This document shows positions 2,499-15,091 of a stretch of DNA of 64,000 bases, in pieces. The notes under the pieces were generated by a model that saw only the letters and a list, made by a program, of their open reading frames with translations, was not told where the DNA came from and made no database searches. Within the stretch, counting starts at the first letter, position 1. The number at the start of each line of letters is the position of its first letter. The DNA comes from a candidate division KSB1 bacterium. Lineage in GTDB: Bacteria > Zhuqueibacterota > Zhuqueibacteria > Residuimicrobiales > Krinioviventaceae. Position numbers and translations under genes: made by a program. The DNA lies in assembly GCA_034521575.1 (NCBI GenBank), contig JAXHMJ010000005.1:682001-746000 (forward strand), written 5' to 3'.

Positions 2499-3542
2499 TT
2501 ATTTTCCGTTCACCTCCTTTATAGTTTCTTTAACAGAATTTCTCTTAATCATAGTAGTAGGTAACAAGATGCTTTTTGAGGAAAAAATACGGTTAGTTTC
2601 GATTTGATCAAACAAGAGTCGCATGGCCATTTGACCCAGCTCAAAATTCTTTTGTTCTACCGTTGTCATCGGCGTTTTAAGAAATTCAGAGTAGGGTTGT
2701 TCATCAAAAGCGACCATGGATATATCATCTGGTATGCTTAATCCTTCTTCATAAAGGGCGCGCAGGACACCAAGAGAGATGAGATTGCTCATAGCAAAAA
2801 TAGCAGTGGGAGGTAACTCATTTCGTAATAGTATTTTGGTTTCAAAATACCCGTTCTGATCGCCGAAACTATCTCCAACGATCAGGGATCTATCCACTTC
2901 GATATTATTGTCCTTCAGTGCTTGAGTATAGCCTCTGATTCGTTCTTCATTCGGGACCGTTCCGGGTATACCCTGAATGACGGCAATTCTTCGATGACCA
3001 CATTTAATCATATAATTTACGGCATCATAGGCACCCTGAAAATTATCCGAACCCACATACGGCAAATCAGAATTGAAATAATACCGATCAATCACAACGA
3101 CAGGTGTACCGCCTTTCTGAAAGCTCTCAAGAGCCTGAGAATTCAGTCCGACAGGAGCGACAATCAAACCATCTACTTTACGATTCTGCATTAAAATGAG
3201 AGAATCCTGTTCAAGTTCTTCATTCTCCTGTGAATCACACAGCATAATTGAATAGCCGTTTTTACGTGTAAACCCTTCCACACTTTTTGCAATACTGGAA
3301 AAAAAATGATTGGAAATATCGGGGATGATTAGGCCTATTATCAAGGTTTTTTGCATCCTGAGGCCGCGAGCCATAGGATTAGGAATATAATTAAGTTTTC
3401 TGGCTTCGGAGAGAATGCGTTTTTCGGTTTGCTTGCTGATGCGATATTGAGTGGCTTTACCATTGAGCACTCGCGATACAGTGGAAGGAGAAACAGTACA
3501 ATTATTTGCAATGGTTTCGAGATTCACATGATTGTTATCCAT
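2499..3542 (-). CDS. LacI-family transcriptional regulator
   Basis: DNA-binding sugar-responsive regulator of about 347 residues, the usual family length. The start at 3542 is preferred over the in-frame start 24 bases upstream because a GGAG site precedes it and the helix-turn-helix then begins at once (NLETIANNCTVSPSTVSRVLNG), followed by the hinge helix region (NPMARGLR). The rest is a periplasmic-binding-protein-like domain with typical landmarks (IGLIIPDISNHFF, DGLIVAP, VVVIDR, YDAVNYMIKCGHRRIAVI, DDISMVAFDE). The gene points towards the TonB-dependent receptor about 290 bases downstream, so the two may form one regulon. A promoter overlapped by an inverted repeat lies directly upstream and suggests autoregulation. 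The effector sugar cannot be told from sequence. Confidence 0.93.
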   Translation of the reverse strand: MDNNHVNLETIANNCTVSPSTVSRVLNGKATQYRISKQTEKRILSEARKLNYIPNPMARGLRMQKTLIIGLIIPDISNHFFSSIAKSVEGFTRKNGYSIMLCDSQENEELEQDSLILMQNRKVDGLIVAPVGLNSQALESFQKGGTPVVVIDRYYFNSDLPYVGSDNFQGAYDAVNYMIKCGHRRIAVIQGIPGTVPNEERIRGYTQALKDNNIEVDRSLIVGDSFGDQNGYFETKILLRNELPPTAIFAMSNLISLGVLRALYEEGLSIPDDISMVAFDEQPYSEFLKTPMTTVEQKNFELGQMAMRLLFDQIETNRIFSSKSILLPTTMIKRNSVKETIKEVNGK

Positions 3543-10185: not shown

Positions 10186-10203
10186 TTACACAGTATGGGT
10201 TCG

Positions 10204-10234
10204 GTTCGCTGCCCGTCTCGATCGGGCAGCGAAC
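10204..10234. repeat. GC-rich hairpin related to the array repeat
   Basis: A perfect 12-bp inverted repeat, GTTCGCTGCCCG with CGGGCAGCGAAC, and a 7-base loop, 18 bases past the stop of the acyl-CoA synthetase gene. The GTTCG...CGAAC ends and the GCTGC/GCAGC core resemble the array hairpin (GTTCGTTGCT/AGCAACGAAC). No T-run follows, so it is not a standard terminator. Confidence 0.5.
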
Positions 10235-10270
10235 AATACGAAATTGGTCAAACAAAAAAGATATATTTAC

Positions 10271-10318
10271 CGGTTCGTCGGATTTGGTTTGTTCGTTGCT
10301 GAAAATCAGGAGCAACGG
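10271..10318. repeat. Single repeat copy separated from the main array
   Basis: It carries CGGTTCGTCGG, then the core GTTCGTTGCT, the GAAAATCAGG loop and AGCAACGGAC. This is one array unit lying on the far side of the GxxExxY gene, so that gene is flanked by repeats on both sides. Confidence 0.75.
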
Positions 10319-10323
10319 ACAAA

Positions 10324-10738
10324 TCATTCTATTTGCTCTGATGCTTCTGCAGCATTCTCAATAAAGTTGGGTACTCTTTCAATATCAAATCCGGTTGCAC
10401 GATTTGGAAAATTGATCAAAACGCCCAATTCATATCCTGTTGCTTTAAGATAGTTCAAAAGCTGAGCTTTATGAAACTGTGCAATATGTTCTGCACATTT
10501 CAGTTCTATGATGATCTGGTCATTAACAACCATATCTGCACAATACTCACCAATTGTTTCACCTTTGTATTGGACCTCAATCGGTTTTTGTGTTTCTACT
10601 TTTGAATCCCCTGTTGATCAATTCAATGCTCAAAGCCCGTTCATAAATTTTTTCCAGAAAACCATTGCCTAATATTTTACGGATTTCGATACAGGCCTTT
10701 TTAATTTTGTAGAATGCTTCTTTTTGAATTAATCGCAT
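10324..10738 (-). CDS. GxxExxY protein (PD-(D/E)XK nuclease-like), one frameshift
   Basis: Small protein of about 137 residues of the GxxExxY family, which is placed in the PD-(D/E)XK nuclease superfamily; the biological role is not known. The N-terminal half contains the name-giving motif (GNGFLEKIYERAL). The C-terminal half contains ADMVVNDQIIIELKCAEHI, the acidic/E-x-K core expected for this fold, then LLNYLKATGYELGVLINF. The two halves are in different frames. Removing one base of the TTTT run at 10600-10603 fuses them. It is probably functional if that is a homopolymer error. It sits between one repeat copy and the large array, and shares the array's minus-strand direction with the radical SAM gene. 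Confidence 0.8.
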
Positions 10739-10789: not shown

Positions 10790-13290
10790 CGGTTCGGTTG
10801 TTCGTTGCTAAAAATCAGGAGCAACGAACGACTCGAACGACACAAACTATGAAAAATACACCTGCCAGTTCGTCTCATTCGTTTTGTTCGTTGCTGAAAA
10901 TCAAGAGCAACGAACGACGCGAACTATGAAAAAACACACCTGCCAGTTCGGATAGTTCGTTTTGTTCGTTGCTGAAAATCAAAAGCAACGAACGACGCGA
11001 ACTATGAAAAACACACCTGCCAGTTCGGATAGTTCGGTTTGTTCGTTGCTGAAAACCAAGAGCAACAAACGACTCGAACGACACGAACTTAAAAAAATAC
11101 ACCTGCCAGTTCGGATAGTTCGTTTTGTTCGTTGCTGAAAATCAAGAGCAACAAACGACTCGAACGACACAAACTTAAAAAAACACACCTGCCAGTTCGG
11201 ATAGTTCGGTTTGTTCGTTGCTGAAAACCAAAAGCAACGAACGACTCGAACGACGCGAACTATGAAAAACACACCTGCCAGTTCATCTCATTTGTTTTGT
11301 TCGTTGCTGAAAATCAAGAGCAACGAACGACTCGAACGACTCGAACTTAAAAAAATACACCTGCCAGTTCGGATAGTTCGGTTTGTTCGTTGCTGAAAAC
11401 CAAAAGCAACGAACGACTCGAACTTAAAAACACACCTGCCAGTTCATCTCATTCGGTTGTTCGTTGCTGAAAACCAAAAGCAACGAACGACGCGAACTAT
11501 GAAAAAACACACCTGCCAGTTCGGATTGTTCGTTTTGTTCGTTGCTGAAAATCAAAAGCAACGAACGACGCGAACGATGAAAAACACACCTGCCAGTTCG
11601 GATAGTTCGGTTTGTTCGTTGCTGAAAACCAAGAGCAACAAACGACTCGAACTTAAAAACACACCTGCCAGTTCACTCATTCGGTTGTTCGTTGCTGAAA
11701 ACCAAAAGCAACGAACGACTCGAACGACGCGAACTTAAAAAATACACCTGCCAGTTCGGATAGTTCGGTTTGTTCGTTGCTGAAAACCAAGAGCAACAAA
11801 CGACTCGAACGACTCGAACTATGAAAAACACACCTGCCAGTTCGGATAGTTCGTTTTGTTCGTTGCTGAAAATCAAAAGCAACGAACGACGCGAACGATG
11901 AAAAACACACCTGCCAGTTCGGATAGTTCGGTTTGTTCGTTGCTGAAAACCAAGAGCAACAAACGACTCGAACGACTCGAACTATGAAAAACACACCTGC
12001 CAATTCGGATAGTTCGTTTTGTTCGTTGCTGAAAACCAAGAGCAACAAACGACGCGAACGACTCGAACTATGAAAAACACACCTGCCAATTCGGATAGTT
12101 CGTTTTGTTCGTTGCTGAAAACCAAGAGCAACAAACGACGCGAACGACTCGAACTATGAAAAACACACCTGCCAATTCGGATAGTTCGTTTTGTTCGTTG
12201 CTGAAAACCAAGAGCAACAAACGATTCGAACTTAAAAAAACACACCTGCCAGTTCATCTCATTCGGGTTGTTCGTTGCTGAAAACCAAAAGCAACGAACG
12301 ACTCGAACTATGAAAAATACATCTGCCAGTTCATCTCATTCGGTTTGTTCGTTGCTGAAAATCAGGAGCAACAAACGACTTGAACTATGAAAAATACATC
12401 TGCCAGTTTGTCATTCGGTTTGTTCGTTGCTGAAAATCAGGAGCAACAAACGACTTGAACGACACGAACTTAAAAAAATACACCTGCCAGTTCATCTCAT
12501 TCGGTTGTTCGTTGCTGAAAATCAAGAGCAACGAACGACTCGAACGACACGAACTTAAAAAAATACACCTGCCAGTTCGGATAGTTCGTTTTGTTCGTTG
12601 CTGAAAATCAAGAGCAACAAACGACTCGAACGACTCGAACTATGAAAAAACACACCTGCCAGTTCGTCTCATTCGGTTGTTCGTTGCTGAAAATCAAGAG
12701 CAACAAACGACTCGAACTATGAAAAACACACCTGCCAGTTCGGATAGTTCGTTTTGTTCGTTGCTGAAAATCAAAAGCAACGAACGACTCGAACTATGAA
12801 AAATACATCTGCCAGTTCGGATAGTTCGTTTTGTTCGTTGCTGAAAACCAAGAGCAACAAACGACTCGAACGACACGAACTTAAAAAATACACCTGCCAG
12901 TTCGGATAGTTCGTTTTGTTCGTTGCTGAAAATCAAGAGCAACAAACGACTCGAACGACTCGAACTATGAAAAACACACCTGCCAGTTCGTCTCATTCGG
13001 TTGTTCGTTGCTGAAAACCAAAAGCAACGAACGACTCGAACGACTCGAACTTAAAAAAATACACTTGCCAGTTCGGATAGTTCGTTTTGTTCGTTGCTGA
13101 AAATCAAGAGCAACGAACGACTCGAACGACACGAACCTAAAAAAACACACCTGCCAGTTCGGATAGTTCGTTTTGTTCATTGCTGAAAATCAAAAGCAAC
13201 GAACGACACAAACTTAAAAAAACACACCTGCCAGTTCGGATAGTTCGTTTTGTTCGTTGCTGAAAACCAAGAGCAACAAACGACTCGAAC
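10790..13290. repeat. Array of about 31 long-hairpin repeats
   Basis: Head-to-tail units of about 72-88 bases. Each unit has CACCTGCCAGTTCG, TTCG blocks spaced nine bases apart, the stem GTTCGTTGCT, a loop of about nine bases (GAAAATCAA or GAAAACCAA), the opposite stem AGCAACGAAC, CGAAC blocks spaced nine bases apart, and an A-rich linker. Cores begin near 10801, 10886, 10965, 11041, 11128 and so on to 13250. The two arms can pair over about 29 positions with periodic internal mismatches. Unit length changes mainly by whole nine-base blocks. Many copies have AGCAACAAAC, and one has GTTCATTGCT. Both changes keep pairing through G-U only in RNA copied in the minus direction. The reading frames found across the array are by-products of the repeat. 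Confidence 0.95.
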
Positions 13291-13323
13291 GAGAAAAACA
13301 TATACCCATTGTGCGTGAAACTT

Positions 13324-14601
13324 TCAGACCTTTCCGCAGCAATTCTTGAATTTTTTACCGCTGCCGCAGGGACAGGGTTCATTGCGGCCGGCGGTGTACT
13401 GGGCAGCTGCCGGAGGTGAGACGGGTTCCGGTTGCGGCGCCGGGTGTTCATTCAGGCGCTGTTCATACTGCTGCTGCCGCCACTGCGCAGCCAGCCGGCG
13501 TAAATCCTGATCCGCGTGTTCGAAAAAGCGTTTATAAGCTTCGCAGAAATGATTCGAGCCGCGGTCGCGCGGATCACCCTGACGGTCCTTGGGACAGCCG
13601 CCGCGACAATGCATCAGCCAGGGACAATCCACACATTCCGGCGGCAGCTGCGCTTTAATGGCGCCGAACTCATTTTGACGCGGAGAATTGAGCAGATCGA
13701 TCAATTTATCTTCCAGCACATTGCCGAGCCGCCACTGCGGATCAACAAAGAAATCACAGGAATACACATCGCCATTGTGCTCCACCACCACATAAATGCC
13801 GCATTCCTTGAGCAGCGTGCATTCCGGCGGCTGCATGCCCACATAAGTATGAAACACGGAATCAAAAAACCGCACCGAAGTGGTGGGCTGACCGGCGCGG
13901 AAATCGGATTTCCACAGGTCATACAATTTGATGAAAAAGTCGCCCAGGCGCTCGGCATCCACTGAATACGGCGCCGAACGCGCCGGATCCGTGGGATGCG
14001 GTTCGACAATGGGAATGAACTGCATGAAATTGATATTGTGCGCTTTGTGATAATGGTAAATCTCTTCCACATAATCGACGGAATAATTATTGACCACCAC
14101 CAGAGCATTGACCTCCACGCCTTCATGCAGCATCACATCCCGGGCGCGACTCACACGCTCCCAGCTGCCTTTGCCGCCGGGGAATTTCCGGTATTTGTCA
14201 TGAATGTGCTGTGGACCGTCCAGGGACAGTCCGACCAGAAAATGCGCATCGCGCAGAAACTGCGCCCAGCTTTTGTCAATGAGCACACCGTTGGTTTGCA
14301 GGCCGTTGCCCACCACTTGACCGTCACGTCCAAACCGCACCTGATATTCAACCGCGCGTTCGTAAAACTCGCGCCCCATCAGCGTGGGCTCGCCGCCCTG
14401 CCAGCCGAACGACACCTGCTGTCCGCCCTGCCACATCACCTGTTTGATCATGTGACGCTGGATGCGGTCACTCATGCGATGTACCGGCTGTTCTTTGAAC
14501 AATTCAGCTTTTTTCAGATAAAAACAATAGTCGCAACCCAGATTACAGTCCGGGCCCGCGGGTTTGATGAGGATTGATGAGAGTGGTTTTTGCTGCGGCA
14601 T
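13324..14601 (-). CDS. Radical SAM/SPASM enzyme, anaerobic sulfatase maturase type, with C-terminal SEC-C motif
   Basis: Iron-sulfur enzyme of 425 residues. The radical SAM cluster motif is CNLGCDYCFYLKK near residue 19. FGWQGGEPTLMG and LQTNGVLID follow as in sulfatase maturases, which oxidise a Cys or Ser of a sulfatase to formylglycine. The SPASM part supplies further cysteines (CTLLKECGIYVV, CDFF, ECVDCPWLMHCRGGCPKD). The C-terminus adds a proline-rich linker and a zinc-type SEC-C motif (RNEPCPCGSGKKFKNCCG). No sulfatase gene is present in the window, so the substrate is either encoded elsewhere or different. Transcription from this gene would run into the repeat array. Confidence 0.88.
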   Translation of the reverse strand: MPQQKPLSSILIKPAGPDCNLGCDYCFYLKKAELFKEQPVHRMSDRIQRHMIKQVMWQGGQQVSFGWQGGEPTLMGREFYERAVEYQVRFGRDGQVVGNGLQTNGVLIDKSWAQFLRDAHFLVGLSLDGPQHIHDKYRKFPGGKGSWERVSRARDVMLHEGVEVNALVVVNNYSVDYVEEIYHYHKAHNINFMQFIPIVEPHPTDPARSAPYSVDAERLGDFFIKLYDLWKSDFRAGQPTTSVRFFDSVFHTYVGMQPPECTLLKECGIYVVVEHNGDVYSCDFFVDPQWRLGNVLEDKLIDLLNSPRQNEFGAIKAQLPPECVDCPWLMHCRGGCPKDRQGDPRDRGSNHFCEAYKRFFEHADQDLRRLAAQWRQQQYEQRLNEHPAPQPEPVSPPAAAQYTAGRNEPCPCGSGKKFKNCCGKV

Positions 14602-14639: not shown

Positions 14640-14867
14640 TTATGCTATTTTTTCTTTTAATAAACTTTTATCTACATCCAAAGTATAAGACAATATCGTA
14701 TTAATATCCATCTTTTTAGAGGCGTTTAATATTTCAATCCCAATCAATTTTCCTTCAGATGTCGTATCAATATTTATTCCTTCCCGGATTTCAATAACAC
14801 CATCCGCATTTTGATTTCCGAGTTCCAAATAAAGAGCATCAACTTTTTCGTCATAATGTATTTTCAT
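14640..14867 (-). CDS. DUF2283 domain protein
   Basis: A 75-residue protein with the DUF2283 pattern: MKIHYDEKVDALYLELG at the start, then GINIDTTSEGKLIGIEILNASKK. Function is unknown. In many genomes this family lies beside a DUF4258 gene, as here, with a four-base overlap (ATGA). The pair resembles a toxin-antitoxin module, but activity has not been inferred from sequence. Confidence 0.85.
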   Translation of the reverse strand: MKIHYDEKVDALYLELGNQNADGVIEIREGINIDTTSEGKLIGIEILNASKKMDINTILSYTLDVDKSLLKEKIA

Positions 14868-15091
14868 TGCTGAATTCCTTTCTTTAAAGGATAAACTGTG
14901 ATAATAGTAGCATCATCCTTTTCTACTGACAAGACTATTTTAATTGGATATTCAAATCCAGCCAGTTCTTTTATAACTATATTTTCACCTTCTGTCAATT
15001 TTAAATCACTTAATAATAACTCTATTTTTGATTGGTGTATTTTGTAAAGTTTTGCTCTCCTCTTTGCATGTCGAGAAAAATGTATTCTCAA
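14864..15091 (-). CDS. DUF4258-type small protein, possible toxin
   Basis: A 75-residue basic protein starting MRIHFSRHAKRRAKLYKI and ending TIITVYPLKKG. The N-terminal 'H-A-x-x-R' segment and the final beta strand match the DUF4258/RelE-like style of small toxins. Its stop overlaps the start of the DUF2283 gene. A VapB-like (DUF2281) gene ends 58 bases upstream on the same strand, so three small genes may form one operon. Which one would neutralise it is unclear. Confidence 0.7.
   Translation of the reverse strand: MRIHFSRHAKRRAKLYKIHQSKIELLLSDLKLTEGENIVIKELAGFEYPIKIVLSVEKDDATIITVYPLKKGIQQ

Follow-up and report, generated by a model that had tools for sequence, protein, structure and literature searches.

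The array and its neighbouring genes

The window, the whole 64,000-nucleotide stretch of candidate division KSB1 DNA that was analysed, contains a single tandem array, reported by TRF at 10989–13292 with a period of 86 and 28 copies. Cutting the array at its joint extends it to 31 units on the plus strand (10792–13292), a length that rests on the assembly; 29 of the units are distinct and the last is truncated. The remainder measure 75–78 or 83–87 bp, and these two length classes (~77 and ~86 bp) correspond to one 9-nt word more or less in the right arm. Each unit folds into two successive 5-bp helices of GTTCG/CGAAC words, each followed by a 4-nt internal loop, and then a 10-bp core. With up to two mismatches allowed, 32 copies of the core GTTCGTTGCTGAAAA are present, compared with 0.34 expected from shuffles, and its exact form is found at the array only within the whole 5.26-Mb genome. 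These data agree with the original prediction of about 31 tandem hairpin units with GTTCG/CGAAC blocks, as do the variant counts, with AGCAACAAAC present in 15 of the 31 units and GTTCATTGCT in one. The array is also, as had been proposed, non-coding and not a CRISPR: there are no unique spacers and the units align over their full length with a mean column identity of 86%, so that reading was rejected. No Rfam match was found in the window. Departures from the stem consensus across the array are mostly CpG transitions, chiefly towards CpA on the plus strand, which hints at strand-biased cytosine deamination or methylation.

The right neighbour of the array is a minus-strand gene for a radical SAM/SPASM protein with a SEC-C motif (13324–14601), and beyond it lie two adjoining small genes (14640–15091), encoding a DUF2283 and a sub-threshold DUF4258 protein, which overlap by a few bases and resemble a toxin-antitoxin-type pair. 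The left neighbour is a plus-strand gene for an AMP-binding enzyme (PF00501; 8674–10185), convergent with the genes to its right. Between the AMP-binding gene and the array sits a GxxExxY (PF13366) gene on the minus strand, found in two pieces that lie in different frames: a first part at 10592–10738, matching profile positions 2–44, and a second at 10324–10608, matching positions 39–114. The pieces score 88.8 and 34.5 bits, both over the Pfam cut-off, and their frames meet near an A-run around 10600. The gene is therefore either decayed or interrupted by an assembly indel, and this copy may be inactive. The description of the site as a convergent intergenic region thus holds for the outer pair of AMP-binding and radical SAM genes, but the array itself lies between two minus-strand genes.

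Further GTTCG hairpins (10199–10321, plus strand) flank the GxxExxY gene on the side away from the array; within them, positions 10270–10320 are 82% identical to an array unit and share its orientation. The gene thus has the repeat on both flanks. The range of 10790–13290 first assigned to the repeat describes the array correctly but leaves out this related unit. At all nine orthologs of the radical SAM gene in relatives the array is absent, and a search with the array over 62 relatives returned a single 35-bp match. The array in the window is lineage-specific.

The GxxExxY protein and its hairpins

GxxExxY proteins of the relatives match TIGR04256, placing the family as TIGR04256/PF13366, and PF13366 is present in 52 of 60 relatives. 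A PDB sequence search yielded no solved relatives. In a Foldseek comparison with PDB structures, the AF2 model (pLDDT 96.4, pTM 0.88) came closest to lambda exonuclease, SSO0001 (a Cas4 protein) and LHK-Exo, with a best E of 4e-3, probabilities of 0.98–1.0 and a TM of ~0.5. Across 76 sequences D67 and E77 never vary and K79, Q91 and Y95 hardly do, giving a D..ExK..QxxxY arrangement which we take to be the pattern of the RecB/Cas4/lambda-exonuclease nucleases. PADLOC gave weak Cas4 matches at most. Differences between the copies at L031 and L039 fall 17/3/56 on the three codon positions, which indicates purifying selection on GxxExxY. Judged by its modelled fold and catalytic residues, GxxExxY is a member of the PD-(D/E)XK nuclease superfamily and a predicted nuclease. 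We found no function described for it in open-licence PMC papers, and its mention in a reverse-transcriptase paper is only a passing one.

The evidence that proved decisive came from beyond the array: GxxExxY genes generally sit inside hairpins of this kind. With one common threshold applied to all counts, enclosing repeats were found at 27 of 32 PF13366 loci from this genome and 60 relatives, compared with 1 of 30 loci of the control family PF05016 (MWU p 1e-9). In named public genomes they were found at 62 of 75 PF13366 loci among the matches listed, compared with the same 1 of 30 (MWU p 2e-10). About 17% of PF13366 loci have no enclosing repeat at this threshold. The public set derives from a pattern scan that matched at least 595 stretches, and comprises 80 PF13366 loci from about 20 phylum-level groups, assigned from record titles, among the matches listed. 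The main control is this single family, its 30 loci drawn from the same relatives; an unrelated family was chosen because a swapped-arm ranking over the 80-locus set was blunted by the common words CTTCGTG/CTCTGTG. In the 32-locus set, own flanks gave a median inverted-repeat score of 22 and foreign flanks 11. When 400 kb of this genome were surveyed for hairpins, a gapless search proved too strict and gave one hit; with gaps allowed there were 33 inverted repeats, whereas a mononucleotide shuffle gave 2.

The words from which the arms are built differ from locus to locus. Other PF13366 genes of this genome are bordered by hairpins of CACAGAG/CTCTGTG, CACGAAG/CTTCGTG or GCAAAG/CTTTGC, and at a public locus, L138, the order is ACCACGAAGGACACGAAGAGCACGAAG, GxxExxY gene, CTTCGTGCTCTTCGTGTCCTTCGTGGT. 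The more alike two GxxExxY proteins are, the more alike are their words (Mantel r 0.30, p <= 5e-4). As a rule, then, PF13366 genes lie within or between hairpins built of words particular to the locus, in some 20 bacterial phyla among the matches listed. We found no description of this link in open-licence PMC papers, from which the hairpin words are also absent, and an earlier account elsewhere is possible.

Genes of a second family, PF05635, show the same hairpin architecture at 21 of 26 loci outside rRNA. Their words have a period of 7 nt at 16 of 21 loci, compared with 8–10 nt at 21 of 23 PF13366 loci from the same 60 genomes (Fisher p = 1.5e-8), and control DNA has no word period. Since the period differs by family within the same genomes, it tracks the protein family and not the host. 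No rRNA match was found in the window, at 20 PF13366 loci or at 20 PF05635 loci. The PF05635 hairpins of the relatives (L066–L095) often lie beside efflux or ABC transporter genes, and near one of these loci (L068) there are two Acido-Lenti-1 RNA matches (2474–2519 and 3047–3092).

Filled and empty sites, solo hairpins and other arrays

Presence and absence at orthologous sites, as a transposable element with terminal inverted repeats would show, is seen in efflux operons whose pumps are >80% identical: the GxxExxY element lies between the adaptor and pump genes in two genomes and is missing in three. This evidence comes from the L031/L039 loci and not from the window copy, and the empty adaptor-pump sites are highly diverged, so that insertion ends and target duplications are blurred. 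At L032 an internally deleted gene copy remains between retained arms. Two unrelated lineages (L132 and L146) carry elements with different words at the carA-carB junction, as read from translated ends, and operon junctions may be preferred targets of the element.

Hairpins are also found without a gene. Solo GTTCG hairpins occur elsewhere in this genome, on contig C5 at 479.7–489 kb and 788.4 kb, and gene-less CACGAAG hairpins are dispersed in two relatives (G042 and G048), with loops that are related between copies. Searches for the word pair CACRRAGNNCACRRAG gave matches in 56 of 60 genomes, but hardly any for its reversed control. One 85% complete genome (G034) has 229 matches of CACRRAGNNCACRRAG and zero PF13366 matches, so in that genome the words can persist without the gene. 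Tandem arrays accompany 6 of 32 PF13366 loci in this genome and its relatives and 7 of 80 among the public matches listed, compared with 0 of 30 control loci. Together, the empty sites, the deleted copy, the solo hairpins and these other arrays indicate mobility of the GxxExxY element.

Two other repeat families were noted in this genome. A second dispersed palindromic family, CCCGTAGGGAC...CTATAGATAT, lies on contig C2 at 297–420 kb and on C5 at 480–489 kb, where it surrounds an ORF (L283, 6058–6498) resembling an IS200-type Y1 transposase and is interleaved with GTTCG solo hairpins. A multicopy inverted-repeat family, CATGCATCC...GGATGCATG, is found on contig C2 at 228–240 kb (L097 and L098).

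Origin of the array and comparison with known systems

On balance, the array probably arose by a tandem expansion, specific to this lineage, of the repeat belonging to a non-autonomous, DNA-level and probably mobile GxxExxY hairpin element, in which we infer a nuclease action. The element would consist of a word-repeat arm, the GxxExxY gene and a complementary arm. Its nuclease may recognise hairpins of its own words, either as cruciforms or as single-stranded hairpins, and cut or trim them, after which host repair would copy or amplify the repeat. Such cutting and repair could yield solo hairpins, internally deleted copies and tandem arrays alike. In the window, where the gene appears to be broken, unequal exchange, together with gain or loss of 9-nt words, would have multiplied the repeat to 31 units, and the array would have drifted afterwards.

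The level at which the hairpins act was assessed from their mismatches. A minus-sense structured RNA had been put forward, on the grounds that stem departures give G-U pairs in that sense, and within the array they do: there are 29 G-U cells at 7 site types in the minus sense, compared with 3 cells at 2 site types in the plus sense. However, this excess was discounted as evidence for RNA because the units arose from one another by duplication and CpG transitions account for 7 of the 9 site types. Array pairs never change on both sides, which leaves no covariation within the array, and over 94 related loci gene-sense G-U mismatches are about as frequent as A-C (190 versus 183; 44/45, 87/87 and 59/51). 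A structured-RNA reading of the array was rejected on these two grounds. The equality of G-U and A-C favours a role of the hairpins at the DNA level.

An element acting at the RNA level is nevertheless conceivable in a broader form, in which the arms, transcribed with the operon, pair as double-stranded RNA and RNase III cuts them as in the intervening sequences (IVS) of 23S rRNA, excising or insulating the GxxExxY message, with the array as a chain of RNA hairpins. PF05635 proteins are known from such RNase III-excised IVS (PMC4990558), several GxxExxY elements lie inside operons, and in the relatives the genes are codirectional with their upstream neighbour in 28 of 30 cases and with their downstream neighbour in 26 of 30, neighbour strands being read from ORFs only. 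This insertion in the operon direction is now the strongest point in favour of a role as RNA, but codirectionality falls to 49 of 67 and 45 of 69 in the wider set, among the matches listed. The flanks also fold slightly better in the gene sense (p 0.0015 and 0.04), an edge that may reflect coding-strand composition. Given also the lack of covariation in the array and of any preference for G-U over A-C, we regard this explanation as rather unlikely.

An improbable explanation, in our view, is that the array is a neutral satellite, a chance palindrome near the radical SAM gene that was amplified by replication slippage and lies near GxxExxY by coincidence. The lineage-specificity of the array, the word-sized indels between its units and the missing covariation would all fit, but the repeat is present on both sides of the GxxExxY gene, its word family is dispersed elsewhere in the same genome, and the gene-hairpin link recurs in about 20 phyla, among the matches listed, with a clean control. 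Neutral slippage may still account for how a few units became 31.

Enterobacterial BIME/REP sequences are clustered extragenic palindromes, as is the window array, and the suggestion of an expanded BIME-like DNA element bound by a nucleoid or nuclease protein came near to the nuclease-linked DNA element that comparison brought out. As a host element, whose hairpins bind gyrase, IHF or similar or act as terminators or stabilisers of mRNA 3' ends, it is highly improbable: the hairpins are palindromic, extragenic and repeated, and some solo copies stand just behind genes (L284), but the words are locus-specific and not genome-wide, their period tracks the co-encoded protein family, and many hairpins lie within operons, where terminators would harm. 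To our knowledge, BIME/REP sequences have no co-encoded PD-(D/E)XK gene, and their unit grammar differs from that of the array.

The hairpin link gives the widespread GxxExxY family a testable substrate, accounts for a class of repeats often met in environmental genomes and suggests an origin for sequences that fragment 23S rRNA; that the word period should be specific to the protein was not expected. We tentatively propose, as a possibility that goes well beyond the window, that GxxExxY (PD-(D/E)XK) and S23-type four-helix proteins could be parts of a single, so far unrecognised superclass of bacterial mobile elements. In these, a small protein would read palindromic arms whose word period (8–10 or 7 nt) is its own. 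The rRNA IVS would then be a special case, and arrays like this one an amplified by-product.

The 23S rRNA IVS with an S23 ORF (PF05635), for example that of Coxiella burnetii, has a terminal inverted repeat whose loop carries a small ORF, is sporadic and is suspected to be mobile (PMC4990558). PF05635 genes outside rRNA show the same layout. The window element shares the small ORF within an inverted repeat, the sporadic spread and the suspected mobility. It differs in encoding a PD-(D/E)XK-type protein in place of a four-helix bundle, in lying between protein genes and not in rRNA, and in its 8–10-nt words, whereas PF05635 loci have 7-nt words; with no rRNA match in the window, identity with an IVS was rejected. 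In the REPIN/RAYT system of Pseudomonas fluorescens SBW25, a gene is bordered by its own palindromic repeats, which are also dispersed without the gene and form ordered tandem clusters (PMC3116915). All three features recur here, but RAYT is a relative of Y1/HUH transposases and GxxExxY has a PD-(D/E)XK fold, and the window repeat lacks a 16-mer REP, its palindrome being built from 9-nt words. Because the enclosed gene is PF13366 and not a Y1 transposase, this assignment was rejected as well.

MITEs and insertion sequences resemble the GxxExxY element in having a gene between terminal inverted repeats, an internally deleted copy and empty sites, but the latter has no DDE or HUH transposase and its arms are periodic word repeats. 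With Cas4 and lambda exonuclease GxxExxY shares the fold and the D..ExK..QxxxY residues; it differs in its size of ~123 residues and its TM of only ~0.5, and no CRISPR or recombinase partner was seen. The best reading from these comparisons is that the window element would work much as REPIN/RAYT or the rRNA IVS do, using a Cas4/lambda-exonuclease-like protein as its putative nuclease.
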